From IMG/VR virus record IMGVR_UViG_3300012923_000004, positions 1-49,949 of that record: 49,949 nt of DNA; one strand, given 5' to 3'. The position numbers and the translations under genes are program-made. Source of the DNA: a virus. The notes under the pieces are model-generated. The model was given only the letters and a program-made list of their open reading frames with translations, was not told where the DNA came from and ran no database searches. Of the stretch, positions 10,454 through 44,582 are shown in pieces. The first letter of the stretch is position 1. Each line of letters starts with the position of its first letter.

Positions 10454-10510
10454 ACCGCACCCCGGCGCGGCACCCGCCACCCGGTGCCTTTTACCCCAAA
10501 TGAGGAACCA

Positions 10511-11056: not shown

Positions 11057-11059
11057 GTC

Positions 11060-11641: not shown

Positions 11642-11868
11642 GAGAACTCCATCAGCGCCTTTCCGACCTAAAGTTCTCGCTCGAAGAAATGAGGAATGAA
11701 CTTCACGAAGAGCAAAAATACGCAGCAAGCGAACACGATGCTTGGGAAGATGATCATGAGGAAAGTGATGATGAGCCCGAAATCATCGACAACTCCGACT
11801 CCATCGATCGCTATGACAGGGCCATCAATTTGCTTAGTCAAGCCTTGATGGTGCTCGACAATGACTGA
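11638..11868 (+). CDS. Very acidic small protein, 76 aa
   Basis: ATGA-coupled. An N-terminal helix (RELHQRLSDLKFSLEEMRNE), then a strongly acidic stretch (DAWEDDHEESDDEPEIIDN) and a closing helix. The charge makes it a possible DNA mimic, as seen in several phage anti-host proteins. This is inference from composition only. Confidence 0.6.
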   Translation: MRELHQRLSDLKFSLEEMRNELHEEQKYAASEHDAWEDDHEESDDEPEIIDNSDSIDRYDRAINLLSQALMVLDND

Positions 11869-21224: not shown

Positions 21225-21633
21225 TTTTCATTACCGAGTAGGCGATATAAAGTTCGCCCGATGTGAACATTATCCAAAATGGAATACCTATAGACATATG
21301 CCCGACCTCAATCGACCCAATTATTAAAGCAAGAGCAAATTGAACCCATAAGGAGGCCGAAAGAGCCGCACAAGATGCACGGATGTAAGGCCCAGCTCTA
21401 ATATCTACAATGGTCTGACCATTCAACATAAGACCTGACACGCGAATCCAACCTACCATTAGCATAAACATGCCGATGTAATACTTCGGTACAAAAGCGA
21501 GAACCCAAGGGTCGATCCCAAACGTAGCCAGCTGTGGCCAACCGACGATCTCGAAGCCCCCCGCAAGCATCGAGATCGCCATGACCCACTCAAAGGCGCG
21601 GCCTTCTACGAAATAGTCAAATCGGTTTGGCAC
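21214..21633 (-). CDS. Multi-pass membrane protein, 139 aa
   Basis: About four membrane helices: residues near 15-32, 42-70, 87-112 and 116-136. The GTG start at 21633 has GGAA upstream and overlaps the lipoprotein gene by 17 bases. No enzyme motif. In a lysis cassette it may be a second holin or an exclusion protein. Confidence 0.65.
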   Translation of the reverse strand: MPNRFDYFVEGRAFEWVMAISMLAGGFEIVGWPQLATFGIDPWVLAFVPKYYIGMFMLMVGWIRVSGLMLNGQTIVDIRAGPYIRASCAALSASLWVQFALALIIGSIEVGHMSIGIPFWIMFTSGELYIAYSVMKNAR

Positions 21634-21844
21634 ACTGGTTCCTATACGTTAGTTCGTTCGCGAGGATACGCTTCTTAACCGCAAGCGGAGCGGCGATAGC
21701 TCCGTCGCCTTTGGCGACCACGACCTTATTATAGACTTGACAGAATGAGTCCACTGGACTAGCTTGTCCAAACGGGAGCCCGGCGCACCCACTAAGGCTC
21801 AAGCCCGCGCAAACCAGCATCAATGTCTTTATCATCCATCGCAT
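21617..21844 (-). CDS. Lipoprotein, 75 aa, candidate outer-membrane spanin
   Basis: Type II signal peptide with lipobox LSGC (Cys at residue 20), followed by a short mature domain with two more Cys (FCQVYNKVV and NQCAKPI). Short lipoproteins next to holin and endolysin genes are usually o-spanins that fuse the outer membrane at lysis. It lacks the high Pro content of Rz1, so the role is tentative. The start at 21844 has GAGAAGG upstream. Confidence 0.6.
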   Translation of the reverse strand: MRWMIKTLMLVCAGLSLSGCAGLPFGQASPVDSFCQVYNKVVVAKGDGAIAAPLAVKKRILANELTYRNQCAKPI

Positions 21845-22016
21845 CGACCTTCTCCATGATTGCCTTACCAGCTTGTGTCTTGCGCAGAATGGCCGCGGAG
21901 GTTTTGGCTATCTCCGCGTCCGTTCCGGCCTGAAACGATTTGGTATCATGCACTTCAGTCATGATCGCGTTCGCGATCTTCAGAACAAGAAGCACGATTT
22001 CAGGGACCGTAAACAT
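21792..22016 (-). CDS. Small protein with N-terminal hydrophobic helix, 74 aa (candidate inner spanin)
   Basis: A hydrophobic start (MFTVPEIVLLVLKIANAIMT) and a charged helical remainder (DAEIAKTSAAILRKTQAGKA). It overlaps the lipoprotein gene in another frame by 53 bases, as i-spanin and o-spanin genes often do. Start in TAATG overlap with the holin stop. Confidence 0.55.
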   Translation of the reverse strand: MFTVPEIVLLVLKIANAIMTEVHDTKSFQAGTDAEIAKTSAAILRKTQAGKAIMEKVDAMDDKDIDAGLRGLEP

Positions 22017-22288
22017 TAACCGCTCGATTTCGCGTTTTCAACAGCGGTCTTGATAGCGGCGGGCGCGCTCGCGGCGACCTGCACATTCACGCCGGGAATA
22101 GCTTGGGCCGAGGCGGCAATAGCAGCCGGTCGGTTAACTACCCAAGACCAAATAGCCGGGCCAATTGTCAGCGCGCCGCCGGTAATCCAGCCCCAGGTCT
22201 CGGAATTAACCCAACCTTTCGCGAGAGCAAATCCGCCCCCGGCTGAAAGAACCGCGCGAAGAATACCAGTGATTTGATCGACTGTCAT
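22016..22288 (-). CDS. Holin (Pam3-gp28-like)
   Basis: 90 residues with two membrane segments: AVLSAGGGFALAKGWV and WGWITGGALTIGPAIWSWVV, then a Pro-Ala-rich soluble tail (NRPAAIAASAQAIPGVNVQV). This is the layout of the Pam3-gp28 family of phage holins, which form the membrane holes that let endolysin reach the cell wall. The ATG at 22288 follows AAGGAGAA. Confidence 0.75.
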   Translation of the reverse strand: MTVDQITGILRAVLSAGGGFALAKGWVNSETWGWITGGALTIGPAIWSWVVNRPAAIAASAQAIPGVNVQVAASAPAAIKTAVENAKSSG

Positions 22289-22403: not shown

Positions 22404-22926
22404 TCAGTTCTTCTTGAGTCGGTTTCGGTCGCTTCGCTGGTCTCGGTATTGGTTTCACCGGAACTGGAGCCGGCGAGGGTGGCGATGCTTTTGCTCCAAA
22501 AATAATCGCCTGTGCTTCGAGCCAATCATTATCCGAGGCCGGATACCGCTTCCCGGCCTCATGCGCGGCCTGGGCCTTTAAGAAGGCAACTCCCATAGGC
22601 CCGCGCCAAAAGTCGTCATCCATCATCGTGTCCTCAGTAATACCCGGCACCGCCGTTTTTACGAACCGGATATAACTTGGAACGTTATTATGCCCAGACC
22701 AGATAGCTATCGCATCAGCGAATCTCTTATTCCTATAGTTCTTCGAGGTCCTCCACAAATCTAACTGAGCACAAATCCCTTGCACAAATGTAGGGAATAC
22801 CGCGATATTATTACCCTGGCCAAGGCCATCGTGCAGCGTAATAGTCTCAGTCGAGCCCCACTTCTTAGCGAGCGGACTTCCCCACATCGCCCCCGGATTT
22901 TTCGTTCTTATTGAGGCCGGTTCCAT
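22366..22926 (-). CDS. Endolysin / lytic muramidase-like protein, 186 aa
   Basis: The start at 22926 overlaps the fibre gene stop (TGATG). RTKNPGAMWGSPLAKKWGS, LHDGLGQGNNIAVFPTFVQG, ADAIAIWSGHNNVPSYIRFV and KAQAAHEAGKRYPASDNDWL match a phage peptidoglycan-hydrolase family (lysozyme/transglycosylase-like, often labelled structural protein P5-like lysin). The catalytic residue is probably a Glu near the N-terminus (MEPASIR). The end is a Pro-rich linker and charged helix. No signal peptide, so export needs the holin. Confidence 0.7.
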   Translation of the reverse strand: MEPASIRTKNPGAMWGSPLAKKWGSTETITLHDGLGQGNNIAVFPTFVQGICAQLDLWRTSKNYRNKRFADAIAIWSGHNNVPSYIRFVKTAVPGITEDTMMDDDFWRGPMGVAFLKAQAAHEAGKRYPASDNDWLEAQAIIFGAKASPPSPAPVPVKPIPRPAKRPKPTQEELIDKALRDLEPKR

Positions 22927-24053
22927 CAATGCACCTTTAGAATTTTATTACAGATGAAGGTCGGCTGAACGATTGAGAAAGAGGTTGATAGACCACCTTG
23001 AGGAGTACCAGTAAAAGTTGGTTGGGTAATTAGCGCAACATTCGCATCCGCACTAGCTTGCAATACGGATATCTGTGCTCCAGCGAGGCCACCAACTGGA
23101 GTTACCGGATGAGAATAAACACCACCAGTATTAACACCAACCGGCGTATATGGTGGAAGGTTCGTTGTTAATAAAACCCTCGTGGCCGATCCAAGGACCG
23201 CACCGAGCACCGTGCCACCCGGCAAAAGTCCATTATCGACTCCGCCCATATTAGACTTACCAGCACTGACGACCGAGCGCCGGTCTGGCATGAGCGGATC
23301 GACTCCGTTAGTGCCATAAGGGGAACCAGCAGAAACGAGCTTTGCCCGGTAATCAGGATAAAGCGCGGTACAGGCTTGACCTATAGGATAGACAAATCCG
23401 GCTGGAGCCGCGCCACCCGCGTCATAATCCCAGCAAGTTCCAGAAGGAATTAGTGCGTCGATCAATGATCCTGGGATACCAAGGGCTGTAAGCGCCGCTG
23501 CCGTCGTTAGTGCGGTTACCACTGGTATCATCGCGGCGGACACAGTAGTCCCCGGTGTTATTGTATCAAGAACCGCCGGATTTCCAAATGCGTCGAAACC
23601 TAATATCTTATTGACCCGCGCCGAGGCAACAGGGAGTGTGCCGGCCGCCAGATCTGCGATTGAGAAGATAATCGAGCGATTGATCTGATCCTGAAGTTGT
23701 TGAGTTATCATTGTGATATAGTCGAGCGCATCCTCAATATCCGCCGGATAGGCCCCGCCCTGATTCGTCAGATCGGTTTGCTGAAGGTTCGCCACGGATC
23801 GCGACACTACAATTTTCGTCGCGGCGGTGATCGGTAATCCACTTAGCGGATAGGTGACCGAGCCGCCTCCGGAGTTACCGAGCCCAGTTACCGAATAATT
23901 AACCGGGTTAACCACCGTTTGATTACCAGAAACCACATCGACCAAGGTAACTACCAGGTCCGCGAGCGCCGGAATTAGAAAGGTGAAAGGCCAAACCGTC
24001 GTGGCGCTATTGCCCTGAGCCACGGCCTTAATAGATAAAGTGGTGAGTGTCAT
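22926..24053 (-). CDS. Tail fibre: T7-type N-terminal anchor and tail-collar-like C-terminus
   Basis: 375 residues. Residues 1-135 follow the T7 gp17 attachment domain (ALADLVVTLVDVVSG, NYSVTGLGNSGGGSVTY, ITAATKIVVSRSVANLQQTD, DIEDALDYITM). After a linker, PAGFVYPIGQACTALYPDYR and LMPDRRSVVSAGKSNMGG are typical of phage tail-collar domains. The last part probably trimerises and binds the receptor. It carries no signal peptide, unlike the other tailspike-like protein at 34892. Confidence 0.85.
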   Translation of the reverse strand: MTLTTLSIKAVAQGNSATTVWPFTFLIPALADLVVTLVDVVSGNQTVVNPVNYSVTGLGNSGGGSVTYPLSGLPITAATKIVVSRSVANLQQTDLTNQGGAYPADIEDALDYITMITQQLQDQINRSIIFSIADLAAGTLPVASARVNKILGFDAFGNPAVLDTITPGTTVSAAMIPVVTALTTAAALTALGIPGSLIDALIPSGTCWDYDAGGAAPAGFVYPIGQACTALYPDYRAKLVSAGSPYGTNGVDPLMPDRRSVVSAGKSNMGGVDNGLLPGGTVLGAVLGSATRVLLTTNLPPYTPVGVNTGGVYSHPVTPVGGLAGAQISVLQASADANVALITQPTFTGTPQGGLSTSFSIVQPTFICNKILKVH

Positions 24054-30952: not shown

Positions 30953-31485
30953 TATAAAACTCCTTTTTGCTTGTAACCAACCCACTTATCCGAGAATGAC
31001 CCGGCCGAACCGAGCAGGCTCGTCGCTACATTAATCGTCCCGGCCTTCTCCGCGTTCTCAGCCGCGGCCCTGTTGAGCCCGCTTTCCGCTTCGAAATTCA
31101 TGCCCTGAGCCTTGAACCCGGAAGCGTTCCTCGCGGCATTATTCAGGATCGTGAGTGTGTCAAGGTGACCGAGCGCCTCAGCGCTCTCGCGCACGTTAAC
31201 CGCCGTGCCGGAGCCCACATCAAGTCCGCTCGATGCCTGAGTCGCGAGTTGAGTTGCAACCAGGTTCTTGGTTTTTAGGTCCTGGGTTTGAGCCTGAACA
31301 GCGCCGGTCTGAGTGGCGTAGTCCGCGTTCCGCTTCGCGATAATAGCATTGTTGTTCGCGACGGCGGCCTTGTAGTTATAGGCCGCCGCATTCGCGTCAG
31401 CGGTCTGCTTCGCGCCAAAGGCCCCCACCGCTCCGCTCGCGGCTGAGGCCACCAGTGATCCAATCGCAAGTGTTTCAATGCCCAC
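30952..31485 (-). CDS. Internal virion protein, T7 gp14-like, 177 aa
   Basis: GTG start (31485) with GAGGT upstream. The N-terminus has a small-residue hydrophobic helix (LAIGSLVASAASGAVGAFGA) and then Ala/Asn/Gln-rich helices (KQTADANAAAYNYKAAVANN). This is the hallmark of gp14-type ejection proteins that enter the outer membrane. The order gp13-like, gp14-like, lysozyme protein, giant protein matches T7. Confidence 0.75.
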   Translation of the reverse strand: MGIETLAIGSLVASAASGAVGAFGAKQTADANAAAYNYKAAVANNNAIIAKRNADYATQTGAVQAQTQDLKTKNLVATQLATQASSGLDVGSGTAVNVRESAEALGHLDTLTILNNAARNASGFKAQGMNFEAESGLNRAAAENAEKAGTINVATSLLGSAGSFSDKWVGYKQKGVL

Positions 31486-31909: not shown

Positions 31910-34482
31910 TTGCCGGTGTCTCCGACTTGAATTTCTGGGATCACGCCGAGAATCGTGGCCGGGAGCGGATTTGATTGCTGAATACAAAGCTGACCTTCGG
32001 TCTGCCAGCCCCCACCAATCACCATGCGCTGATCACCTGTGAACAGGTCTATTGGCTGACCAATAGTATTCAGGTCGCGGTCCTTGTATGAAGTGAGATC
32101 ATCAAAGGTCGGTCCCATTTCCAATCCGCGAGTCTGATCAACCCGCGCAGTCAGGGCGATAAGATTCTTTCGTTTGCCCTGGATCGTTGGATCGCCAGTG
32201 TCAAGATAGAGGGTTTGAAGCTGCGCGGTGTAAGCAAGGCCTACGGTAACTTTGGAACAGGGCTGGGATAGCATCACCGAGCCATTCAAAACAGTTTGCA
32301 TAGGAAATACATTCCCGTCTCCAAGAATTGAAACTGTTTCGCCCTCAAGATGATCGAGGCCGGAGAAAACCGTACTCGGCTTAGTCAAAGACCAAGTTAC
32401 TTGAGGCCACATAAGTGCCGGATTTCGAAACGAGTCTATATCGGTTATAGGCTTTGTTATCGTCGCGGTTACGAGTTGAGAATTTGTGTAGGCAGTTATT
32501 GTGGCAATACCACCACCGGCGCGAATTATTGAGCCCACATCGCCAGCACTAAAGGCTGCTACATTAGTGGAGAACTGGACCCCAACTCCACTAACGGCGC
32601 TGGAACTCAAGGTAGCAGTTGGAAACACAAGGTCGTTCTGCAAAGCGCAGTCTACAAAGAATGCATCCTCAACTCCATAAGGCATAAGCCTCGTATGCAT
32701 TCGCTCGATGAAAGAGACCTGACGTCCCTGCAAGTATCTTTGTACTATCATATAGACCGCATTCTCTTGGCCTTCCTGAATCGAAGTGATTGACTGGAAT
32801 CGACCCTGCGTCGCGTGTTGAGCCCAACCAAAGACTTCCTGTTCCTTCAAGTAGGTCAGCGAGAGCAACGCTCCATCCGAGCGGACCGCCCAAATGATCT
32901 TGAAAGGTTCTTCGGCGTAGGTCCACTCCTTGATCGAATACCCAGTAAACAGATGGTTTGACAGCACCGACAGGTCGGCGCCCGTGTAGATATTGGTGTA
33001 GAAGCTGTACGAGAGGTCCCGGACCACAGTGCCTTTCTGTTGGACATACAGAATATCATAGTTGATAGTAAGCGGTTCGACATCGGCGCACCCGTTGTAA
33101 GCTTGAGGGGTTGCGTTAATTGTGGTGGGAGATAAGATGGCACCGGCGCTGCCGCCAGAGACCTGCCATGCGCCTCCTCCAGTCAGCATGATAAGACCGC
33201 CCGGCATCGCGACCATATACTTAATGTTGTTAACTTGACGCGAGACCAAGGTCCCAGTTATTGCGTCGCTTGGCTGAACCGGATCGGATACGTCGAAGTT
33301 CTTGAATTGACCGGGCTTGGACATCCAGAAGGTTGCCGGGAAAGAATTTGATCCGGCGTAGACCTTGCGCTGCTGGTCATAGGTGACCGCGATCGGGTTA
33401 TTACTGGTAAATGGATTTTGGTGAGTTGGGGGTGCGAATGTAAAATCTGGAACGATGTTCGTATCGACAGCCTGGACGTTCGCGTTACCAGTAATGGTCG
33501 TCATAAAACCGTAAAGCGCCCCGGCGGGAATGGCTAATCCAACGCTCGGAAGCGCCTTATACACGTTATACGAAACAGCCCCGGCGACCACCGTCCACTG
33601 AATAAGAACGGAACCAGCGACGGCGGCGATATTAACCTGAGCTCCTTGACCACCAACTGCTGAGGCCACTGATTCCTCACCGGCCGCGTTCACAGCCGTA
33701 ATTACATAAGAATACTGTGTAGTGCCACCAGTGTTTGGATTAACCGTGACTACCGGGGCCATTGGCGCGGCTATCGCGGACCCAATTGAGACCGCAGTAA
33801 AGGCCCAGGCCGTATCACCAGTCCGCGTTAAATCATAGGGTGGATAGCTTGGATGTGTAAGCGTCATAGTATCGGCGGACTGCGTAAACTTGAGTAGCGC
33901 CAGGTCCGCGGCGGCATAAGGTGAAACGATCTCATAGAGAGAAGCGACGGTGCCGGAGGTGAATACACCGAATCCAGCAGTGTTTAGTGTGTTGCCATTT
34001 AGGTCTTGTAGACTGAAATGGTTCGCGTCCACCACCACTACAAGGTATTGCTTGTTATTAGCTTGTGTCATCCCGGCAGCGAGGATCAAAACTTGAGTCC
34101 CGGCTGTATATCCATGAGCGGTCACATTGAATACGCCAGGATTCGCGTTCGTAGCCCCAGTAATAGTTTTCGCGGCGTTAAATACCTGCGCGCCGCTTTT
34201 AATAACCCGTATCGCGAGGTTACTAAATTCGAGGATATAATTTTGGACGGTGCTGAACTGAAATGGAATGAGCCGCTCGGGATTTACTGAATCTTTGACT
34301 TGGTATACCAACTCAAAGCCCGGCCGATTGCTCGCGCCGCCACGGTAGTCTACAAAGAAATTTCGAAGCCGCGCCGCGCCAATATGGTACTTCGCAAGAT
34401 CAACTCGCGCGTATAGTGTCGGGGAAAGTTCCCCACCCGCGAAGGAGGTCTGAATTATATTAGTGCTCAAATTGTATCCCAT
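31906..34482 (-). CDS. Tail tubular protein B-like (tail nozzle), 858 aa
   Basis: The N-terminus NIIQTSFAGGELSPTLYARV and KYHIGAARLRNFFVDYRGGA is characteristic of podoviral tail-nozzle proteins (T7 gp12-like group). The remainder is beta-rich with an internal fibronectin-like region at about 240-345 (PMAPVVTVNPNTGGTTQYSY). It forms the end of the short tail below the adaptor ring. No signal peptide. Confidence 0.82.
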   Translation of the reverse strand: MGYNLSTNIIQTSFAGGELSPTLYARVDLAKYHIGAARLRNFFVDYRGGASNRPGFELVYQVKDSVNPERLIPFQFSTVQNYILEFSNLAIRVIKSGAQVFNAAKTITGATNANPGVFNVTAHGYTAGTQVLILAAGMTQANNKQYLVVVVDANHFSLQDLNGNTLNTAGFGVFTSGTVASLYEIVSPYAAADLALLKFTQSADTMTLTHPSYPPYDLTRTGDTAWAFTAVSIGSAIAAPMAPVVTVNPNTGGTTQYSYVITAVNAAGEESVASAVGGQGAQVNIAAVAGSVLIQWTVVAGAVSYNVYKALPSVGLAIPAGALYGFMTTITGNANVQAVDTNIVPDFTFAPPTHQNPFTSNNPIAVTYDQQRKVYAGSNSFPATFWMSKPGQFKNFDVSDPVQPSDAITGTLVSRQVNNIKYMVAMPGGLIMLTGGGAWQVSGGSAGAILSPTTINATPQAYNGCADVEPLTINYDILYVQQKGTVVRDLSYSFYTNIYTGADLSVLSNHLFTGYSIKEWTYAEEPFKIIWAVRSDGALLSLTYLKEQEVFGWAQHATQGRFQSITSIQEGQENAVYMIVQRYLQGRQVSFIERMHTRLMPYGVEDAFFVDCALQNDLVFPTATLSSSAVSGVGVQFSTNVAAFSAGDVGSIIRAGGGIATITAYTNSQLVTATITKPITDIDSFRNPALMWPQVTWSLTKPSTVFSGLDHLEGETVSILGDGNVFPMQTVLNGSVMLSQPCSKVTVGLAYTAQLQTLYLDTGDPTIQGKRKNLIALTARVDQTRGLEMGPTFDDLTSYKDRDLNTIGQPIDLFTGDQRMVIGGGWQTEGQLCIQQSNPLPATILGVIPEIQVGDTGK

Positions 34483-34871
34483 TCAGACATATTATTAAGG
34501 GGAGTCAAGATGACCGCGCCCTCGCCCTGCGCTCCGGCGACCACGAGGGTCGATAGACCATCGACTTTCTGAGTGCCGAACGGCGTCACTGTCATATCGA
34601 AACCGAAGTTTCTATTCTTAAGAATAAGGTCGAAGCCGCCGTAAGGAAGGGTCATCCATAGGCGAAGGTCTGGAAGAAGCAGGGCGAACGCGGCGGCGAC
34701 GGTCTGCTGAATTATTACGATTTGATCGAAAGGGAGAATGGTGACAGAGCCCGCGGTGGACACGATCCGCTTGTTATTGAGCGGACGAATAACTTGACCG
34801 AAGGTCGGGCCATAATCAACCTTGCCATAAATAGTTGGAGTTGAAATTATACCAGAAGGGGGACTGCTCAT
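34467..34871 (-). CDS. Small beta-rich tail protein, 134 aa
   Basis: ATG 34871 has AGGGA eight bases upstream and is preferred to 34925, which lies inside the preceding gene. The middle holds TAGSVTILPFDQIVIIQQTV and FALLLPDL, a pattern common in small phage adaptor or fibre-associated proteins. The precise role is unknown. It overlaps the nozzle gene start by 16 bases. Confidence 0.6.
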   Translation of the reverse strand: MSSPPSGIISTPTIYGKVDYGPTFGQVIRPLNNKRIVSTAGSVTILPFDQIVIIQQTVAAAFALLLPDLRLWMTLPYGGFDLILKNRNFGFDMTVTPFGTQKVDGLSTLVVAGAQGEGAVILTPLNNMSEWDTI

Positions 34872-34891
34872 TTTGTAATTCCCTGTTCGTG

Positions 34892-37045
34892 CTAACGTGG
34901 CCGCCTTGCATACAGCCCACCCCACGCGCCTAACGTACTGACAGTAAACGTACTTTGCACAACACAGAATACCGTTGTCGTCGAGTTAAGACTGATGCGG
35001 TTTCTTGGGAATGGCGCGCTGATATTAGCGACTCCGGGTACATTAGCGGCGCCAGTCCAATAGCCGATATTGAACGGCGTCTGATTAAGCGTAGCTGAAG
35101 TGGTTGAGATCGACGTGATAAGGCTGGTAATCGATGTAGATGCCGCTGTCGTAAAATTAGCCTCGCACGTCACGTCCCAGTCGCCGGCGGTCAATGATTG
35201 ACTAGTGAGGTTTGCGGGAGTTGCCGTGGTCAACGCTACCGGAGACCCAGATGCGACCGATGGACCAAAGGACTCGCCAACGTCACCAGCAGCTGCATTG
35301 TCGTTAGTAGTAGTACCTTTGACTTTATTGACGGTAGAGGCGCTGTTGTTAGAGCCGTCAGGCGTTCCAAATGTCATATAACCGCCCGTGACGCTCGCCA
35401 TCACAGGTGAAAGACCCGTCCTACCAATGAACACTTGACCATCTGTACCGATGTTGGTTGTGAACGGTGCCGCGCCCACACCACCGCCGAGCATAACGCC
35501 ATTAGCATTGAGCAGCGTAGAAGTCGCCTGTTTCCCGCTTGAATTAAAGAACGGAACGCCGCCAGAGGTCCCGAGCGGCAGCGTTGAGGGAACGCTGTAT
35601 TCAGTTGCAGTTCCACTATCGCTTACCGTTGAAGAATTGGTAGGAACCGTCACGCCATTCTGAATGAAGATGTTGTTAGCGCCAACCTTTGTATTAGTAG
35701 AAGATGCTCCAATAGTTAGAGCCGCATAGGTTGATGGTGTTACCAAAGTATTATTGTTAATTTGCGCCCCGTTGGCGTTTGTGATACATAGCGGTTTTGG
35801 ATTGCCGGTACTAGCGAGCGTCGTAATGCGGTTGCCAAGAATAGTAGCAGTATCGACTTGACGTGTTGACCCGCGAAAATCAACCAAGCAATTATTGCTC
35901 TCTGTATTGGTACCATGTTGTTCCATAACGTTGCCGACGATGAATGGCGAGGCTCCACCATCCCACACCACCATCCCACCTGCACAGGACAAGTTATTAG
36001 CATCATCAATAATTACACCGCTGGCACCAATAACAAGTTGGCCTTCAATGCAAGGACCGGGGCCAGCAACCGTGTTTTTGGCGATGCGCATACTATCACC
36101 ACCAAAGTTAAAAGTGATTGGATTTAGAAATGAATTAAGCGGGCCAATCATACCGTTAGTAGTGCCACCAGTAACGTTCGCAGCAATGACAGTACCGCCA
36201 GATGTATAAGCATTAGCGAACGTTGGGGTCAAATCAATATGTGTACCATCAACTACGGTGATCGACCATGAGCCGTTGGCTTCCGTGGTGCCGCCAACAT
36301 TTGCCACTGTCGCGATCATGCCATTGATCATGCCGGTCGTGGAAGTGACAGTAAGACGAACAAGTCCAGAACCGTTATTGGCGGCGCCACTGACATTGAC
36401 CGGCGCTAACGCGTTGTTAAACCGAACTGCTTTGCCATTCAACGCAAGAACAGTGTTATGATCCACCTGTGAAAACACAATGATACCAGTATTTGTGCCA
36501 CTGGTATCGAAGTTGATAAAATCGCGCGCGTGCGTGCCACTGGCTGAGAACACCTTGAAACCTGAAATGCGCCAGCCATAGGGATTGCTGACGGCGTTCG
36601 GTGTGAAACGAAATATGTCGGTCGAGTTACCGACGCCATCGACGATCAGCGCGACACAATTCTCGGCGGCGTGCAGATAGATCGGCTTTTGCCTCAAAAA
36701 TACTTCGGTACCCGAACCGGAGATGGCATAATTGCCACAAGGGAAATAGAGTTCGCCACCCTCGGCTATTGACGCTATAGCCGTTTGAAGAACGGCTGTT
36801 TGATCGGTTCCATCCCCTTTCGCTCCAAAATCAGCGACAGATGGAATTGCTGCACCACAAACTCCAAAAGATGGAGGAACTGTATCAAAAAGGCACTTCG
36901 CGCCGGTTGTACTCGCAACAGTAGAATTAAATCCGATAACTCCTGGACCGCGACCGATAGGGACAGTTCCATTTGGCACCTGCCACTGGGCCAAGGCCAC
37001 CGACGAGGTTAAAGCAAGAAGAAACCCAATGATAAATCGTTTCAT
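34892..37045 (-). CDS. Secreted tailspike-like protein: Sec signal peptide plus pectate-lyase-type beta-helix, 717 aa
   Basis: Residues 1-19 form a typical Sec signal peptide (MKRFIIGFLLALTSSVALA, cut before QW). Then VADFGAKGDGTDQTAVLQTA, the usual entry of a right-handed beta-helix of the pectate-lyase/tailspike type, many Asn/Gly-rich coils to about residue 480, and a C-terminal domain (LTAGDWDVTCEANF...GGLYARRPR) often found at the ends of phage fibres. Such proteins bind or cut polysaccharide. A signal peptide is unusual, since virion tailspikes must stay in the cytoplasm for assembly. Confidence 0.78.
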   Translation of the reverse strand: MKRFIIGFLLALTSSVALAQWQVPNGTVPIGRGPGVIGFNSTVASTTGAKCLFDTVPPSFGVCGAAIPSVADFGAKGDGTDQTAVLQTAIASIAEGGELYFPCGNYAISGSGTEVFLRQKPIYLHAAENCVALIVDGVGNSTDIFRFTPNAVSNPYGWRISGFKVFSASGTHARDFINFDTSGTNTGIIVFSQVDHNTVLALNGKAVRFNNALAPVNVSGAANNGSGLVRLTVTSTTGMINGMIATVANVGGTTEANGSWSITVVDGTHIDLTPTFANAYTSGGTVIAANVTGGTTNGMIGPLNSFLNPITFNFGGDSMRIAKNTVAGPGPCIEGQLVIGASGVIIDDANNLSCAGGMVVWDGGASPFIVGNVMEQHGTNTESNNCLVDFRGSTRQVDTATILGNRITTLASTGNPKPLCITNANGAQINNNTLVTPSTYAALTIGASSTNTKVGANNIFIQNGVTVPTNSSTVSDSGTATEYSVPSTLPLGTSGGVPFFNSSGKQATSTLLNANGVMLGGGVGAAPFTTNIGTDGQVFIGRTGLSPVMASVTGGYMTFGTPDGSNNSASTVNKVKGTTTNDNAAAGDVGESFGPSVASGSPVALTTATPANLTSQSLTAGDWDVTCEANFTTAASTSITSLITSISTTSATLNQTPFNIGYWTGAANVPGVANISAPFPRNRISLNSTTTVFCVVQSTFTVSTLGAWGGLYARRPR

Positions 37046-37047
37046 GC

Positions 37048-37827
37048 TTATATAGTCCCATAAAGTGGCCCGAGCGGGGCTGTGTAACCAATAGTGGTCT
37101 GGCCAAAGTCGTAGTCATCGCGGATAGTAAGCCAATCTGGCATGTTATCAATCACCATCAAACCTTCGTTACCGTCAGTAGCCCGCGCTGCCACGATTAC
37201 GGCATTCGCCTGAGCAAACTTCGTATTCGCCAAGGCGACTTGACCAGATAGCGCAAGAACCAGCTTCGCGGCTAATGCTTGAACAAGCGCCTCGACAAAA
37301 TCGGCCCCGAAAAGGGCAGGATTCGTGATGCGCATTATATATCGGCCAATAGCTTGGTACTGGTTTGTAAGAACTACATTCTGCTGATTACCACTAGCAT
37401 CGGTGTCGGTTGTAACTTCGAAAGGAGCACCAGGGCCAATCACATAAGGATATGTATTACTGCCAGCGGTTGTGAAAGGGGTTCCGACGTAATAACTTTG
37501 AAGTTGCTGGATAACCCGGCCCATCTTGATGCAGTCATCGGGGTACGCGTACTCATAGAGCCAAGGCGGTGCTGGGAAGGCCGAGGACCACTGACTCGCG
37601 GTGGAAGCGGAATTGGTCGGGGTTCCGGGGGCGGACTTTAGCAGGGCTAAATAAGCCGTCTTAGACGCGAAGTTCCAATAGGCCATACCAAGAACCTCGT
37701 CCCGTGTATCGGCATAGATAAGATTACAGTTGCGCGCCTCGACCGAAGCCTCGGTGAGCGAGGCTATAGAAGTCCGAGTGCCAATGGCCTGGAGCGCGCG
37801 GTTGCAAATACTAACTTCTGACGGCAT
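37048..37827 (-). CDS. Tail tubular protein A-like head-tail adaptor, 259 aa
   Basis: The start SICNRALQAIGTRTSIASL, then EARNCNLIYADTRDEVLGMA and YWNFASK, matches the adaptor (tail tubular protein A / head-completion) family of podoviruses. The C-terminal part (DWLTIRDDYDFGQTTIGY) is also typical. It connects the portal ring to the tail nozzle. No signal peptide. Confidence 0.75.
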   Translation of the reverse strand: MPSEVSICNRALQAIGTRTSIASLTEASVEARNCNLIYADTRDEVLGMAYWNFASKTAYLALLKSAPGTPTNSASTASQWSSAFPAPPWLYEYAYPDDCIKMGRVIQQLQSYYVGTPFTTAGSNTYPYVIGPGAPFEVTTDTDASGNQQNVVLTNQYQAIGRYIMRITNPALFGADFVEALVQALAAKLVLALSGQVALANTKFAQANAVIVAARATDGNEGLMVIDNMPDWLTIRDDYDFGQTTIGYTAPLGPLYGTI

Positions 37828-37840
37828 TAGATCGCGTCCT

Positions 37841-40465
37841 CTACTTCCTCATAATGGCACCGGAACCAGCAAATCCTATGTAAATCTGTCCATAAACGAC
37901 CGGGTCGGCAGCTAACGCGCGAGCTTGGTCAAACGAGTTAGTTGTCCACGGCCCAAGCTGCGTCCACACGGGAGACGCCGCCGGTCCAGTCGTACATTGC
38001 CAAATCCCGTAGGCCGATAAATACCAGCTTGAAAACGGACCTGAGCCCGAGGCTGTGCCGCTGGAGTTTACGGTTATGGTTACGGTGCTTCCCGAATAAG
38101 AAGCGATGGTCCCGGCCATGTAAGAATTGCCGCCAATGTTCCCCACGCCGATCGGTGCCCCGACTTGAAAAGTCGAGGAAAGGCCAGAACCAACCGTAAA
38201 CGAAACGCTGCCACTCCCGACAATCGAAACGGAATCGGTGGGGTGATAACTGACGAAGCCCACCCCGTAGATCGCCGGATAGGATTGACCCGGCGCCGCT
38301 GCCCCGAAAGCAATAACGGAGAAGTCCGCATTGTTAACCTGATTGAAGGTAGCCCCGCCATCCGTTGTGTAATACGTCCCGCCGAAGTTATTTGGATAAG
38401 CTCCGTGTCCGCTATAAGGAGCGAGTAGAAAAGTGTACGGCGGGGCTCTGGTTGTGGTTGAAGTAAACCACACATGGCCGGATTGTCCTTGGACGCACTT
38501 GATATAGCCGGTGTTATCTAAATTCGTCGGTCTTCCGACCGACCCGGATGTCAGGCTCCAAGTCGATCCGCTATTGGTGGAGCGGTAAAACCCGACACCA
38601 GGATAGAACAAATAAAAGGCGTTTTGCGTAACGGGATCGGCTTCGACAAACCTATTGGATTGCGGGTTAGAGTTGAAAGAAGCAAAACTCGGGCTTCCGG
38701 CAAAGGAGCAGGCGGTCCAGTTCACGCCAGCGTCGGTGGTGAATTGCGGGGTTGTCCCTCCTGCCGGTGCCCATACAAAGTTGGTGGGACTGCTGATGGC
38801 AATGTCCCCACCCCCAAATCCCGAGCTGCCATTATAGGCGTTCGAGGGAATACTTGGGCTTACACCGTTATGGGCAAGCAAGAACTTCGTGAAACTGTTG
38901 GCCGCGCCCGTCGCCGAGTAACAGGATTTGCATCCCGTGGCACCGTTACCATATCCAGATTTTACGGGATCGCTGATCGCAGCTACGAAATTTGTATTGG
39001 TGAATTTCGCGTTGTCGAGCGACCAACAGGCGCTCAAATCTCCATTGTTGTCTGGCTCGGAACGCGAAGGATAACTGGATAGATCGGGGACAAAGATAGG
39101 ATGGTCCCAAAATCCCCCAATCACCTTGCCTGACCCAAAACTCAGCATAGTATTTGGATTTAATTGTTCCTCGCCGTTATTGTGCGAGGTCCATGTCACA
39201 CTGGTTCCGGTCGTCACCGAGCCGGTCGCGGCGGTCGTGTAGTAGGACTCGTTGAAGCAGTTAATATAGACCTTGCTGGATATGGTCCGGCTGAATGTCG
39301 CGTTGTTAACGCCGACACCGACGTTAGCCAATTGCAATAACCAGGGAATGTCAGCATTGCCGAACGTCGGTGAACTAGTCCAGCCACTCCAGCCGCTGCC
39401 GGTGTGCTCGTTCAGATTGCCGGAGCCGTCTACCGCCAAAACGTGAGAGGCACTGTTTGGATCACAGCAAACGGCTTGCGCGCTGGTTCCCGAGACTTCC
39501 GTTGCCCAACTGGTGCCGTTGAAACTCAATACGGCGCCCCCCGTGCCACCGGCCGTCGTCATGGAAGCGGTGCATACATAATACTTGCTGCCGTCCGATG
39601 CGAAATCAGCATTCTTGACATTGGACGGCCCGCCGGTTGTGGTCACAGCGCTCCAGGTCGAAGAATTTCCAAGGTTGGCATTATTGGAAACGTAAACGCC
39701 GTTACCTTGACTGAAAGCGTAAGCCTGATTCGGGTTGTTGGGATTAAAGACAATCCCTGTGATGCCTGCTGGCGACCCGGTCGGGGTAGGAAATCCGCTG
39801 GGCTTCCCCCATGTGGTGCCACCATCAGCCGTGGCCCAGAGCCCGCCCGTACTCTCGAACCCGACAAATACAATTGTCGGATCAGTCGGATGAATAGTCA
39901 TCCGCTGGCTGTTCAATCGGCCAACGTTGTTAGGATTAGCAAGAGTATTATTATCAATGGGCGTGAAGGCGGTCTGTGTCCAAGACACTCCACCAGTGGT
40001 GCTTTTGTAAACCCCGGAAAGCTGATTTGGGTTGCTAGACGGGTAGGTTATGTAAACCATGTAGAGAACGCTGGAATTGTTTGGCGCAATCGCGATCTCG
40101 TAAACACCTTGGCCCGCATATGGCCCGTTCGAGACAAACGACGCGGGCATTGCATTTGAGTTGACGAGTTGCTGCCACGCCCCGGTCGCCCCGCTATTTG
40201 GCGTTGGGACGGTAGCGTTCGGATTCCAGATATAGGCGCCGTAAGTATCGGTCCTGATGACGTGGGTATCGTCATTCGCAATTGAGAAGCCAGAAAACTG
40301 CCCGCCAGCACCGAGCTTAAGCGGCTGAAGTGTCTGAATACTACCACCATGCAGATGCAGACCGGCTGCAGCCTTCTTTGCTCCAAGAAGGGCAATCGCT
40401 GCAGCCGACCCTAATATTTTTCTTCTTGTCATGAGACCTGTCATGCCCTTACTACAAAGTGTCAT
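37841..40465 (-). CDS. Asp-box (BNR) beta-propeller protein with Tat-like signal, 874 aa
   Basis: The N-terminus contains TRRKILGSAAAIALLGAKKA, a twin-arginine type signal, with cleavage near KAAA. The rest shows Asp-box repeats (KSTTGGVSW, ATADGGTTW, RSTNSGSTW, TTDGGATF), the mark of sialidase or GH74 xyloglucanase-like propellers, plus paired Cys (CKSC). It is likely to bind or cut a polysaccharide. ATG 40465 is coupled to the preceding stop (ATGA); ATG 40432 would give a more usual Tat peptide. The catalytic residues cannot be assigned by eye. Confidence 0.75.
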   Translation of the reverse strand: MTLCSKGMTGLMTRRKILGSAAAIALLGAKKAAAGLHLHGGSIQTLQPLKLGAGGQFSGFSIANDDTHVIRTDTYGAYIWNPNATVPTPNSGATGAWQQLVNSNAMPASFVSNGPYAGQGVYEIAIAPNNSSVLYMVYITYPSSNPNQLSGVYKSTTGGVSWTQTAFTPIDNNTLANPNNVGRLNSQRMTIHPTDPTIVFVGFESTGGLWATADGGTTWGKPSGFPTPTGSPAGITGIVFNPNNPNQAYAFSQGNGVYVSNNANLGNSSTWSAVTTTGGPSNVKNADFASDGSKYYVCTASMTTAGGTGGAVLSFNGTSWATEVSGTSAQAVCCDPNSASHVLAVDGSGNLNEHTGSGWSGWTSSPTFGNADIPWLLQLANVGVGVNNATFSRTISSKVYINCFNESYYTTAATGSVTTGTSVTWTSHNNGEEQLNPNTMLSFGSGKVIGGFWDHPIFVPDLSSYPSRSEPDNNGDLSACWSLDNAKFTNTNFVAAISDPVKSGYGNGATGCKSCYSATGAANSFTKFLLAHNGVSPSIPSNAYNGSSGFGGGDIAISSPTNFVWAPAGGTTPQFTTDAGVNWTACSFAGSPSFASFNSNPQSNRFVEADPVTQNAFYLFYPGVGFYRSTNSGSTWSLTSGSVGRPTNLDNTGYIKCVQGQSGHVWFTSTTTRAPPYTFLLAPYSGHGAYPNNFGGTYYTTDGGATFNQVNNADFSVIAFGAAAPGQSYPAIYGVGFVSYHPTDSVSIVGSGSVSFTVGSGLSSTFQVGAPIGVGNIGGNSYMAGTIASYSGSTVTITVNSSGTASGSGPFSSWYLSAYGIWQCTTGPAASPVWTQLGPWTTNSFDQARALAADPVVYGQIYIGFAGSGAIMRK

Positions 40466-41169
40466 CGAAACGACACCAACATTTGTTCTTGAGTATTAGC
40501 CGCCCAGCTAACCGTAGCGGCCCAAGAAGCATTTGTACTCACGGTGGTCCAGTCTGCGTTGCCGATACTAGTGGTGCCGTTTGATAGCGTAGCGGAATTG
40601 GCCACCGGATCAGTAGAAGATGACCATGAAAAGCCGGTTTGGCCTGAACCAATAATTGAAAACAGAAAATCCCCAGCTGTGATATTGATGTTTGTCGTAA
40701 CTGGAGGATTACCACTGGATTTTGCAGTTTGCTTTACGGTAGTGGAATTCAAATTGTCCATATACCAGACTTGGGCAATCTGAACAAAAAAGGCGCCACC
40801 ATTTAAGGTGACAGTCTGAGTTCCAGAGCCCGGAGCGGTTCCAGTAATTTGAAAGAACTGCATTTCTGGGCGTGAGGTTCCACTAAAGATCGCCGTGGCG
40901 GTAACACCATTAACGGTAATACTTGTGAAGGCGGTTGAATTGCCCTGAACGACACCGATCAGAATAACACGCGTAGCGGTTGCTGTGCCGATAGCAGATG
41001 TAAAAGAGTTCGATCCAGTGCCCCCATCGGCGACGGCAATGTTTCCGGCCTTGACGTAAAATGGTGCTCCGCCCGCTGGCTTTACTAGTGGCAACCATCC
41101 AGCCGCGTTCACGTTTGGTAGTGGCGCAAGCGCAAGCGCTGCGGCCAATAAATATTTAAGCAGTTTCAT
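40462..41169 (-). CDS. Secreted beta-sandwich protein, 235 aa
   Basis: ATG 41169 lies in a TAATG overlap. Signal peptide MKLLKYLLAAALALAPLPN ending VNAA. The mature part is beta-rich and Gly/Thr/Ser-rich (VILIGVVQGNSTAFTSITVN; TVTLNGGAFFVQIAQVWYMD), like jelly-roll or carbohydrate-binding domains that also occur in fibres. No catalytic motif. Confidence 0.7.
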   Translation of the reverse strand: MKLLKYLLAAALALAPLPNVNAAGWLPLVKPAGGAPFYVKAGNIAVADGGTGSNSFTSAIGTATATRVILIGVVQGNSTAFTSITVNGVTATAIFSGTSRPEMQFFQITGTAPGSGTQTVTLNGGAFFVQIAQVWYMDNLNSTTVKQTAKSSGNPPVTTNINITAGDFLFSIIGSGQTGFSWSSSTDPVANSATLSNGTTSIGNADWTTVSTNASWAATVSWAANTQEQMLVSFR

Positions 41170-42380
41170 TAGAAAGCACTCACTTCGTCCCAACAAACTC
41201 GAACCGAGAATACCCAGGTGCCGGTTCCGGGAACGGTTGCCTGAAGAACAAAGCCCTCATTCTGGGCTAGAACAAGTGGTGACTCACCAATTCCGACCTT
41301 AAAAATATCAGTGGTCGGTAAAAGGCCCGCGTCAATTGAAGTCGCAACCGAAAATTCAACTGAAGCTAGGGGTTGAGTGTCAAGGGTTCGTGTTCCGGCA
41401 GTTAGCGTCGCGGTTGAGGCCACACGAAAATCGGATATCCCTGTAGTCGCAAAACTCGTTCGGAGCTTGCCGTTATTGCCAGTTAAGGTTCCGGAGGTTC
41501 CCCCCGTGTCGCTGACAGTGAAAGAACGCGCCGCTATCATATCGAACTTTGCCGCACCAGCCACGAAAGCGGTAGTAATGTCGTCAGCCTCGGCAGTGAC
41601 CTTACGGATAATGGCGAGACTTGCCGCGCCGTAGCGGAATGAAAAGACCGGCGAACCGCCAGCAAGGCCCGCCGCCATAGTACCGGAATTGGCTCCCATA
41701 CAATAAGAACCAAGAAGGGCCGGGCCAACGGTCATCGGGATGGAGTTGGCAGCGGTGGCCGAGCCAAGGGTAATAATGCCGGGGCTATTCGGATTCAGCG
41801 CGGTTACGATGGAGGTATCGGTAGCGACCGGCGCAGTGGAGGCGGGCTTGATTGTACCAACGTTGGTGCCAGCGGTATCGATTAACTTGACACCACCGAT
41901 AGTGTTGGTTCCGGCTGGAGTCGCCGAATTGGCGACGTTAGTAAGAGCTTTCAAAATTGCGACGACGGAACAGGCCGTTGTTGAGGTTGGAACAGTGCAA
42001 AGCGCATCGGCCTTAGCACCTTGAGTTAGGTCCCATCCATCAACTCCGGCGCCGGATGCAAGGGAACTAGCTGCTAAAGCGCCTGCAGCGAACGATCCGG
42101 CCGAGTAGGCCCCGGAAGCCACGCTGCTTGCGGCCTGTGTGACAGCAATAGTGCTGGCCGCGGCAAGATTAACGGTAATACGGCCAGAGGCATCTACCGC
42201 CCAGCATTGAGTGGTGGTGGTGTTATCGCAGCCGATAAATCGGCTGAAGAGAACGCCGGAGCCGTTATCTTTCGCGCCGAAAGTCAGACCGGAGCCAGCG
42301 GTGGCGGTGTAGTTATCGGCCGCCAGCGCTTGCGAGGCAAAACCGATAAGTAATGCAAGTGATAAAAGAATCTTTCGCAT
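41169..42380 (-). CDS. Secreted structural-type protein, 403 aa
   Basis: Signal peptide MRKILLSLALLIGFASQALA, then ADNYTATAGSGLTFGAKDNG and CDNTTTTQCWAVDASGRITV, a block I recall from many uncultured phage proteins of unknown function. Central Ala/Ser-rich low-complexity region (about 85-125), then beta strands with a Cys near the end (RVCWDE). Probably oligomeric and exported. No enzyme motif. Confidence 0.72.
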   Translation of the reverse strand: MRKILLSLALLIGFASQALAADNYTATAGSGLTFGAKDNGSGVLFSRFIGCDNTTTTQCWAVDASGRITVNLAAASTIAVTQAASSVASGAYSAGSFAAGALAASSLASGAGVDGWDLTQGAKADALCTVPTSTTACSVVAILKALTNVANSATPAGTNTIGGVKLIDTAGTNVGTIKPASTAPVATDTSIVTALNPNSPGIITLGSATAANSIPMTVGPALLGSYCMGANSGTMAAGLAGGSPVFSFRYGAASLAIIRKVTAEADDITTAFVAGAAKFDMIAARSFTVSDTGGTSGTLTGNNGKLRTSFATTGISDFRVASTATLTAGTRTLDTQPLASVEFSVATSIDAGLLPTTDIFKVGIGESPLVLAQNEGFVLQATVPGTGTWVFSVRVCWDEVSAF

Positions 42381-42384
42381 GGGG

Positions 42385-42576
42385 TTACCTCAGCATTGGC
42401 TGAACGCAGCCGTTTGATAGATCGATAGCGCCGGTGCAACTAGGAGGCGGACTTGGGGCTCCGCCTCCGCTGCTCGATTGGCTTATACCACGAAGAAGGA
42501 TAGCGGCGCCTGCGGGTGCCACGGCTAAGACAAGAACTGTTATGAGAACGAGCCGGGTCAATTTGTGTATCCCCAT
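42385..42576 (-). CDS. Very short secreted protein, 63 aa
   Basis: Signal peptide or membrane anchor (LVLITVLVLAVAPAGA), then a Gly/Ser/Pro linker and the ending CTGAIDLSNGCVQPMLR with two Cys. It ends four bases before the 403-aa gene. A similar ending seems to recur in phages with this cassette, but I cannot verify it here. Confidence 0.6.
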   Translation of the reverse strand: MGIHKLTRLVLITVLVLAVAPAGAAILLRGISQSSSGGGAPSPPPSCTGAIDLSNGCVQPMLR

Positions 42577-42995
42577 GCTGTCGCGGCGACCGTGGTTCCG
42601 GCGCCTCCAGCGGGCACGTTTACCACTATACTCGTATTAGCCGCTGAGGATGTGATGCAGCCGGGAAAGGCGATACCGAATACCCCTTGGCCGGAGGATA
42701 CGAAAACATAGATGAATGACATGGTGCCGCCGATGGTGCCAGTAACTGTAATCGTGCCGGAGGCGGCGGCGGTTGTCCCTGCTGATGTAACGGTGAAGCC
42801 GCACAGGTATGTGTACTTGCCAGTGGCCCCAGTTAGTGTTGCGGCGATAGCCCCAGTAGTGCCGGTAGCCGACGCCGTGAGATTATTCGTAACCGGCCCC
42901 TCAGGGAATTGTTTAACTGTGACGACCTGAGCAACCGCACTCGCGCACAAGGCAACGAGTGCAATGAACGCGAGTGCGAACCTATTCATGATCAT
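42558..42995 (-). CDS. Secreted small beta protein, 145 aa
   Basis: ATG 42995 (or 42989) overlaps the upstream stop. The signal peptide MNRFALAFIALVALCASAVA ends before QVVTVK. The mature 120 residues are beta-rich, Thr/Gly-rich, with two Cys (LCGFTV, PGCITS) likely to form a disulfide, which fits export. Unknown family. Confidence 0.7.
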   Translation of the reverse strand: MIMNRFALAFIALVALCASAVAQVVTVKQFPEGPVTNNLTASATGTTGAIAATLTGATGKYTYLCGFTVTSAGTTAAASGTITVTGTIGGTMSFIYVFVSSGQGVFGIAFPGCITSSAANTSIVVNVPAGGAGTTVAATAWGYTN

Positions 42996-43408
42996 ACTTT
43001 CTTGATCGGAGCGGCGGGCGCTGGGGCGGCGGGTTTCGGAGCCGGGGCCTCAATTCCAGTCTGAGGGGCTGGTTCCGGAGCCGAATTGGCTGGTTCCTGC
43101 TTGAACGGCGGGGGCCGCTGGCCCGGACCCGCTACCTTTGGAGAGCCTTCGGCCCCGGTCAGCGGGATAGATTTTGTCGGATCGGTCTCGGGGATTTCGC
43201 CGCCGAACTTCTCATAGAATACCTTCCGGGCCTCATCATCCATAGGGGTCATAGCCCGCGAAGGTGGAAGGGCGTCACCGACTTTGCGGCCGATCTTACG
43301 ATCCTCCTTAGTAGCCCGGTAAGGCCACTGAGTTTCGTCACCGATGATGGTCCCTGGATTAAGAACCTGCTCGTCGATGTGGTGTGGTTCGAGTAATTGC
43401 CATTTCAT
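42992..43408 (-). CDS. Proline-rich virion-region protein, 138 aa
   Basis: ATG 43408; the longer frame from 43489 would run inside the upstream gene. N-terminal half soluble (MKWQLLEPHHIDEQVLNPGT, RKVFYEKFGGE), C-terminal half Pro/Ala/Lys-rich. The only member of this block without a signal peptide. It may be a capsid-associated protein. Confidence 0.6.
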   Translation of the reverse strand: MKWQLLEPHHIDEQVLNPGTIIGDETQWPYRATKEDRKIGRKVGDALPPSRAMTPMDDEARKVFYEKFGGEIPETDPTKSIPLTGAEGSPKVAGPGQRPPPFKQEPANSAPEPAPQTGIEAPAPKPAAPAPAAPIKKV

Positions 43409-43413
43409 GAGTT

Positions 43414-44058
43414 TTACTCCTCTGTCCAAACTATGGAACCATTCCACGCTGCGGCGTTGGTAAGAGTCGCGCCGCCGAGACTCACGCAAATTTGCGCCGC
43501 CGCTCCGACCAAGGTTGGCTGAAGAAGGAAGTTTTCAGCATCCCTCGCATAGTAAAAATCGGCCGGGCCGGCTGGCATAACGCTTGTGACAACTGGCATC
43601 GACAGGAGTTGAGAGTCGAGGTAGGTTGGCGAAGCGTCAGTAATGGTCGGGCTCGCGGTGTACGAGATCAACGTGGCGGTCGCAGCTCCGTAGTTAGCGT
43701 CCCGCTTCGCGATAGTGTTCGCAGGGTTAGCGGTGGTAGAAGCAGCGGTGCCGCCTGTATCCACACTGACCCGGCGAACGAGTTGAAGTGGAACCGCTTG
43801 GGGCGCGGTAGCAGCGGTGCCCCAAATCTGTATTCGCTGGACCCGAACGATCTTGTTCGCAGAACCGGCAATACAGACTACATCGGTGCCGGCTGTAACC
43901 GGAACGAGACCGAAGAAGCCGGCGGAGTAGGTGGTCCGCGAGATGTAGGCGGTAGTAACGCCGGGTCCGGGGACGATGTTGACTTGGGCCAAAACCGGGA
44001 GCGTGGCGGCGATAAGTGCCGCCAGTCCCAGCAAGACCATAAGAGGCTTGCGTAACAT
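43414..44058 (-). CDS. Secreted protein directly after the cement protein gene, 214 aa
   Basis: Signal peptide MLRKPLMVLLGLAALIAATL with PVLA^QV. Mature beta-rich protein with VVCIAGSANKIVRVQRIQIW, DSQLLSMPVV and FYYARDAENFLLQPTLVG. The general pattern resembles phage surface proteins. It starts 11 bases after the cement gene, so it shares the capsid operon. Confidence 0.72.
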   Translation of the reverse strand: MLRKPLMVLLGLAALIAATLPVLAQVNIVPGPGVTTAYISRTTYSAGFFGLVPVTAGTDVVCIAGSANKIVRVQRIQIWGTAATAPQAVPLQLVRRVSVDTGGTAASTTANPANTIAKRDANYGAATATLISYTASPTITDASPTYLDSQLLSMPVVTSVMPAGPADFYYARDAENFLLQPTLVGAAAQICVSLGGATLTNAAAWNGSIVWTEE

Positions 44059-44069: not shown

Positions 44070-44582
44070 TCAGTTTGAGATGACGAGGCCGGCAGGATAA
44101 TTGACATAATCCTGTCGATCGACAACGAGATGGGCCGCGACGGAACCTGCAGTCATGGTGGCGGTCGCCACGGTATAGAGCAATCTGACGAACCGAGGCA
44201 TACCGATTCCGGCTGGAGGCCTGGGCATATCCATCGGGAGGAGGTTCGCGCCGATCACTGCCACGGTTGCCAAGGCGTAGACTGGCGAGACGAACCAGGT
44301 TGTATAGGAACCCGGAGCGCCGGAGCCGTTGTCAGGGGCCCCCTGAAGGGCCACGGACAAGGTGCCCGCACCGCCGGAGGTGAAGGGCACGACGACCTGG
44401 CAATTGATCTTCAGTGCCGGATTATCCCCAATGCCCATATCTCGCGCGCCTTGAAGGTTCGCGAGAACGGGGATGAGGCCTGCGCCATGGAGATCAATGA
44501 CATTGGTTGAGGCCTGTGTCCCGGCCGCGATAGCGACCGAAGTCGGGTTCGGATCGAACTCGTAGAGTTTATCGAGGATCAT
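44070..44582 (-). CDS. Capsid cement protein (Bbp16 family)
   Basis: 170 residues. STNVIDLHGAGLIP, the KINCQVVVPFTSGGAGTLSVAL strand pair, PRFVRLLYTVATATMTAGSV and HLVVDRQDYVNYPAGL follow the Bbp16 family of capsid decoration proteins, which reinforce the shell from outside. It follows the capsid gene as in BPP-1. No signal peptide, in contrast to the next gene. Confidence 0.82.
   Translation of the reverse strand: MILDKLYEFDPNPTSVAIAAGTQASTNVIDLHGAGLIPVLANLQGARDMGIGDNPALKINCQVVVPFTSGGAGTLSVALQGAPDNGSGAPGSYTTWFVSPVYALATVAVIGANLLPMDMPRPPAGIGMPRFVRLLYTVATATMTAGSVAAHLVVDRQDYVNYPAGLVISN

Follow-up and report, generated by a model that had tools for sequence, protein, structure and literature searches.

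In some tailed phages, it appears, part of the apparatus for binding the host is produced outside the cytoplasm, away from virion assembly. The case examined here is a seven-gene block on the minus strand of a soil phage, whose IMG/VR virus record (IMGVR_UViG_3300012923_000004, 49,949 bases) is called the window below. The products of the block begin with export signals, six of the Sec type and one of the Tat (twin-arginine) type, which pass all the sequence tests at hand, conservation despite divergence as well as cysteine pairing, and on these grounds are judged genuine. Export with oxidative folding, considered alone, is very probable, and we also think it probable, with less assurance, that the products are of the fibre or spike type. 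The window itself is placed among the epsilon15/BPP-1-like podoviruses by a homologous major capsid protein (MCP), portal, cement protein and tail tubes A and B in the same order. The predicted genes of the block are the following (the higher coordinate is the start; aa, amino acids):

43414..44058, minus strand: 214-aa Sec-exported single-jelly-roll protein, first gene after the cement gene; signal score 13.9; cleavage MLRKPLMVLLGLAALIAATLPVLA/Q
42558..42995, minus strand: 145-aa Sec-exported beta protein; signal score 17.1; cleavage SAVA/Q; cysteine pair YLCGF/PGCI
42385..42576, minus strand: 63-aa Sec-exported mini-protein; signal score 18.0; C-terminal end CTGAIDLSNGCVQPML
41169..42380, minus strand: 403-aa Sec-exported modular protein; signal score 23.2; cleavage ALA/A; six cysteines
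40462..41169, minus strand: 235-aa Sec-exported protein; signal score 14.6; mature start (A)GWLPL
37841..40465, minus strand: 874-aa Tat-exported beta-propeller protein resembling GH74 xyloglucanase; Tat motif MTRRKILG; match to 2cn2, E=1.5e-20
34892..37045, minus strand: 717-aa Sec-exported spike/fibre-like protein with a C-terminal TNF-like domain; signal score 16.8; cleavage ALA/QWQVPNGTVPIGRGPGVIGF...; phrog_11393 tail fibre

An earlier note on this DNA had singled out these seven open reading frames (ORFs) without database searches; all are present with the starts it gave, and its claim that every product carries an export signal was borne out. Scored with a home-made signal-peptide scorer built from 29 E. 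coli signal peptides, the six Sec-type products take ranks 1-6 among the 250 ORFs of the window, and the seventh (start 40465, score 12.1) has a Tat signal, MTRRKILGSAAAIALLG, before a moderately hydrophobic h-region. As a check, 84 MG1655 genes were scored in the same way and five reached at least 13, four of them encoding proteins whose export is known or evident and the fifth a tiny membrane protein. The six Sec products have what signal peptidase I calls for, i.e., a basic n-region, an uncharged h-region, and an A-X-A cleavage site; the sites proposed before look proper for them, except that the product starting at 41169 is better cleaved between NA and AG. Their true virion neighbours had been said to be free of signals, and indeed the MCP, cement protein, portal, tail tubes A and B, and the 138- and 152-aa neighbours all score below 6, and the Ala/Pro-rich scaffold 8.4. 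The position of the block between cement and tail genes holds for most of its genes but not for the 717-aa gene, which sits between tail tubes A and B, and a further correction is that the signalled block includes two unsignalled genes (42992-43489 and 34467-34925).

Conservation of the signals was followed in the 214-aa family, searched with an alignment of the mature part alone, the signal being left out of the query. Thirty-five of the 36 readable relatives have a divergent but intact signal peptide directly before the conserved mature start and two conserved cysteines. Over 29 members the mean identity is 39% in the signal peptide versus 56% in the mature part, with an n-region that is basic in all and not one aspartate or glutamate in the signal peptides; the real signals score 11-20, and only 7% of shuffled ones reach 13. 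Even cysteine counts mark disulfide-bonded exported proteins, and the rationale for using parity has been published (PMC7678975). When 80 non-redundant signal-bearing phage proteins were compared with phage proteins without a signal, the cysteine count was even in 63/71 of the cysteine-containing proteins with a signal versus 316/713 of those without (Fisher P = 8e-14), and in the 250-500 aa class in 30/31 versus 58/123. In the window, the count is even for each of the seven mature products (2, 2, 2, 6, 0 and 10 in the six Sec products). The cysteine pair of the 145-aa family is present in 21/21 signal-bearing relatives, and pairs are broken in unsignalled homologues: one cysteine is left in L133 (214-aa family; L numbers denote the records compared), none in L159, the sole unsignalled relative of the 145-aa protein, and the second is lost in L043 (403-aa family). 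In the tip domain of the 717-aa protein the pair lies on the same two strands, at identical positions, in the window and in L166, while in gp19 of BcepC6B both cysteines are displaced by two residues, a joint shift that fits a cross-strand bond.

These observations bear on two readings in which nothing would be exported. Alanine- and leucine-rich N-termini could mimic signals through chance or composition, and moderate scores were in fact given to the Ala-rich scaffold and to some internal virion proteins, but with the top six ranks among all window ORFs, the conservation in nearly every relative and the parity result, such an artefact is improbable in the extreme. Podoviruses carry membrane-active internal proteins, and the hydrophobic N-termini might likewise stay uncleaved and act as anchors or membrane-penetrating peptides in the virion or the membrane; the regular presence of A-X-A sites with a conserved mature start behind them, the confinement of Tat motifs to one fixed slot, and the cysteine pairing make this highly improbable.

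The clustering of the signals had been taken to argue for one system, and the search of related genomes upheld this. The ordered set of the 214-, 145-, 63-, 403- and 235-aa proteins, the Tat protein and the spike recurs in the soil relatives L004 and L042, each with six Sec signals and one Tat signal, and a partial cassette is found in L140, L142 and L008-L012; among the relatives compared, the enteric, Burkholderia and Herbaspirillum ones and most of the Acetobacteraceae do not have it, and cultured relatives are mostly without it. Mature N-termini are kept slot by slot while C-termini vary (GWLPL..., QVNxVPQ..., QWQVPxGSVPIGRG..., W/H-HG...): in the 235-aa slot, ten or eleven proteins that vary at the C-terminus have AGWLPL right behind the signal, and in the spike slot QWQVPxGSVPIGRGxG precedes differing C-termini. 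The modules GWLPL, PIGRG, HG and YIPT thus combine a conserved N-terminus with a variable C-terminus, as in tail fibres and spikes, and are candidate docking modules. Runs of signal-bearing proteins near tail genes, mostly with even cysteine counts, were also seen in L049 (4054-12615), L041, L045, L152 and L155. The export phenomenon may be broader than the podovirus lineage; at least some of the viral contigs with such runs belong to other phage types.

Some relatives with similar signals were found in bacterial contigs, and the block could in principle be prophage-expressed cargo that changes the envelope of a lysogen. The genes are, however, tightly coupled (TAATG at 41169 and ATGA at 40465) inside the late virion block, and no integrase turned up in those window proteins that were scanned, so that lysogenic conversion is a very improbable account.

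Homology to tail fibre or spike domains is seen for the C-terminus of the 717-aa protein and for the L079 spikes described below, and is not claimed for the 214-, 145-, 63- and 235-aa products. The 717-aa C-terminal domain is common to the anchored tail fibres of Dickeya BF25/12 and Klebsiella SAA231, and occurs also in a Mulvp2 tail protein and in the signal-bearing BcepC6B gp19 and PBR31 orf035. Its tip is modelled as a TNF-like jelly roll, and the best Foldseek matches of the model to solved structures include the cyanophage A4 portal-tail complex, the short tail fibre of cyanophage A-1(L), and the BC2L-C lectin. The clearest example comes from Acetobacteraceae prophages, where the spike encoded between tail tubes A and B is a beta-helix that starts with the module W...YIPT..EW, which is unsignalled in L080-L084 and stands directly behind a signal peptide in Gluconacetobacter L079, where two beta-helix spikes have signals (scores 17.1 and 10.3). 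Judging by these homologues, a spike can gain or lose its signal without a change of place or N-terminal module. Export therefore does not imply a non-virion role, and the earlier argument that exported proteins cannot be virion parts is not supported, both on this ground and on the domain shared with anchored fibres.

Several observations adjoin those on the spike. A Saccharibacter floricola homologue (L085, 12875-14650) has a signal ending in a lipobox-like MVGC and is possibly a lipoprotein spike. Residues 211-318 of the 717-aa protein (window 36092-36415) form an insert common to tail-region proteins of the Bradyrhizobium prophages ppBjS10J-1 and ppBeUSDA76-2 and to proteins of Manatee Spring phages annotated as 'phage stabilization protein'; the two prophages were considered as cassette carriers and set aside, for they share the insert with no convincing signal-bearing tail cassette. 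Among cultured phages, gp19 of BcepC6B (L055, 20959-22032) and orf035 of PBR31 (L093, 5623-6432) are Sec-signalled tail-fibre-like proteins; their genes adjoin tail fibre or spike genes and lysis genes, and they are annotated merely as tail fibre or structural protein.

The Tat slot differs from the Sec slots in what it keeps. A Tat-type signal is retained across it, with RR or KR in L004, L042, L140, L141, L142 and L146, and several members have an HG motif right after the signal, whereas the domains that follow are unrelated, being GH74-like in the window and L142, weakly LamG-like in L004, and others elsewhere. The L142 protein (9579-11783), also from a soil phage, is Tat-targeted and GH74-like along its full length (6p2m, E=1.3e-44). 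In the window protein two stretches align to 2cn2, and the first GH74 catalytic aspartate (RTD.(Y/G)G.Y) is kept. Tat-slot proteins show no cysteine parity (3/8 even, a small number), which fits folding before export. The HG motif, as WTHG, GLHxHG or WFPHG, opens the mature chain in L104 (13621-13803), L106 (7791-7964), L141, L042, L140, L155 and the window product starting at 40465, and some Tat-slot mini-proteins of 53-60 aa are little beyond a Tat signal and an HG tag.

We envisage the block as a cassette of accessory appendage proteins, namely binders resembling fibres or spikes, small jelly-roll proteins, and a GH74-like glycanase. They would be made late, alongside the virion proteins, and exported to the periplasm by the host, six through Sec and one through Tat; there the signal would be cleaved and disulfide bonds would form in the Sec products. 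From there on we infer that the products accumulate until lysis by holin and spanin frees them together with the virions, that the mature N-terminus created by cleavage most likely docks the chain to the virion or to a partner, and that surface or extracellular glycans are what the C-terminal part binds or cuts; alternatively, the freed products could act without docking. Docking on virions is suggested by the N-terminal conservation and the synteny. In P22, tailspikes can be joined to completed heads in vitro, which makes late addition physically plausible. For the whole chain, from export through oxidative folding to docking or post-lysis action as virion appendages, we put the chances at about even. 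The wider proposition, that this lineage completes its virions outside the cytoplasm, in that spikes, fibres and a glycanase, matured and disulfide-bonded in the periplasm, attach to cytoplasm-built particles at lysis or later through N-termini made by cleavage, is offered more tentatively, at somewhat under an even chance.

Several facts weigh against this reading. The virion already carries a conventional anchored fibre (22926-24053). The scorer is home-made and was trained on E. coli. The second GH74 catalytic aspartate is offset and not clearly conserved, the phage proteins sharing WD[HR] there. The cysteine pair is missing from signal-bearing proteins of the tip-domain family (PBR31 orf035, L011, L017, L164) and from the 235-aa protein, and L182 has one single mature cysteine; given such exceptions, disulfides are common rather than obligatory.

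The chief competing account is that the products act free in solution after lysis. They would never join the virion, and as glycan-degrading enzymes and receptor-like decoys would clear extracellular polysaccharide or prevent progeny from sticking to debris. Export and disulfides are equally compatible with it, a Tat-exported GH74-like protein is what a free enzyme typically looks like, and tip domains do occur with no recognised virion anchor, as in BcepC6B gp19 and PBR31 orf035. The placing of the cassette genes inside the virion operon, the N-termini conserved per slot ahead of variable C-termini, and the unsignalled spike with the same place and N-terminal module in sister phages all argue in the other direction, and we consider free effectors unlikely, if a good deal less so than any other rival. 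It had also been proposed that the products coat the cell surface and block superinfection; they would then remain with the living infected cell and prevent the adsorption or DNA entry of other phages. Known exclusion proteins such as T5 Llp and T4 Imm are small and exported or membrane-bound, but Sec and Tat lead only to the periplasm, no lipobox or membrane domain was seen in the seven products, and they have no outer-membrane barrel; a coat on the outer face of the cell is disfavoured because an outer-membrane anchor is lacking. Together with the late virion-operon position and the large multi-domain fibre and hydrolase proteins, this makes an envelope coat or exclusion function very unlikely.

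Appendage proteins matured in the periplasm would depart from the textbook assembly of tailed phages, which is wholly cytoplasmic. Coat proteins pIII and pVIII of filamentous phages are virion proteins that pass through Sec, and in this they are alike; they are assembled in the membrane by extrusion, in contrast to the tailed icosahedral phage considered here. Spanins are further known examples of exported phage proteins. Secreted and signal-arrest-release (SAR) endolysins, e.g., Lys44 of fOg44, are likewise Sec-exported (PMC6116005), but the cassette products are not lytic enzymes, no Pfam or PHROG match to a muralytic domain being found behind the signal in any of the seven. Known tail spikes and fibres with right-handed beta-helix or TNF-like tips have in common with the window proteins the phrog_11393 C-terminal domain, the conserved N-terminal module, the variable C-terminus and the tail-gene location; the window proteins differ by predicted cleavable Sec signals and paired cysteines. 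Closest are the proteins of the cultured podoviruses BcepC6B and PBR31, in which a signal peptide is followed by ...QLLNPAGSTSGQAI... and the 717-aa tip domain, although each phage has one exported gene beside its tail fibre or spike and lysis genes versus seven in the window. In the passages found in the PBR31 paper, a signal peptide is noted on the esterase gp40 only, not on orf035 (PMC10975493). GH74 xyloglucanases resemble the window protein in the stretches aligned to 2cn2, and the L142 protein over its full length, and differ in that the phage proteins are phage-borne and Tat-targeted, with an uncertain second catalytic aspartate. A literature search, whose coverage left out most subscription papers, returned secreted endolysins and spanins and no Sec/Tat-exported fibre or spike cassette in tailed phages. 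A categorically new assembly route for tail appendage proteins is possible, though unproven. If true, it would add a periplasmic maturation route to tailed-phage assembly, account for the use of disulfide-stabilised binding proteins by phages, allow unknown receptor-binding proteins in soil viromes to be searched for by their signal peptides, and draw attention to glycanases that phages export. Caution is called for as well, since discarding 'host-like' secreted genes from viral contigs would lose real virion-block genes.

The surroundings of the cassette are as follows:

44070..44582, minus strand: cement protein, unsignalled, upstream boundary of the block; phrog_427
42992..43489, minus strand: unsignalled small protein within the cassette, 138 aa from an internal ATG at 43408; no signal peptide
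37048..37827, minus strand: tail tube protein A, unsignalled virion neighbour; phrog_394, E=3.4e-40; signal score 2.9
34467..34925, minus strand: unsignalled partner gene adjoining the 717-aa gene, 134 aa from an internal ATG
22926..24053, minus strand: conventional unsignalled tail fibre with a tail-fibre N-terminal adaptor; phrog_1640 and phrog_13893 on residues 1-128

In the cultured relatives BcepC6B, Shamal and DC33 a small gene separates the cement gene from tail tubes A and B, which come next, and the corresponding stretch of Caulobacter phage BL94 is equally compact; compared with them, the window has about 6 kb extra after the cement gene, and the 717-aa gene between tubes A and B. 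The product of 42992..43489 is conserved in L004-L012 and occupies the position of the small post-cement gene of the cultured relatives (order as in BcepC6B and Shamal). The gene at 34467..34925 is kept beside the spike gene in L004 and L009 and is present also in L011. A holin-family protein (22016-22288) and a spanin-like protein (21617-21844) are encoded in the window, and its lysozyme domain sits in an unsignalled internal protein (28775-30985). A search of genome contigs with the MCP as a single protein gave no matches, and an alignment search was used in its place.

Among the smaller products, the model of the 214-aa protein is an all-beta single jelly roll (predicted local distance difference test, pLDDT, 81); its family has no meaningful sequence match among solved structures and by fold finds only generic jelly rolls, and its origin as a duplication of the cement protein was rejected by profile comparison (probability 0.2%). 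The 63-aa protein has signal-bearing relatives in L044, L042 and L004, and the C-terminal domain of the 403-aa protein recurs in an unsignalled protein of a Mu-like tail locus (L043). No relatives of the 214-, 403- and 874-aa proteins were found among 50,697 phage records, nor of the 235-aa protein in plasmids. The public record of Limnohabitans phage DC33 (L056, PQ492659.1), a 39-kb epsilon15-like podovirus, says Inoviridae, apparently a taxonomy error. In the early region of the window (15191-16465), a ParB-N domain is fused to an N6/N4 DNA methylase domain.

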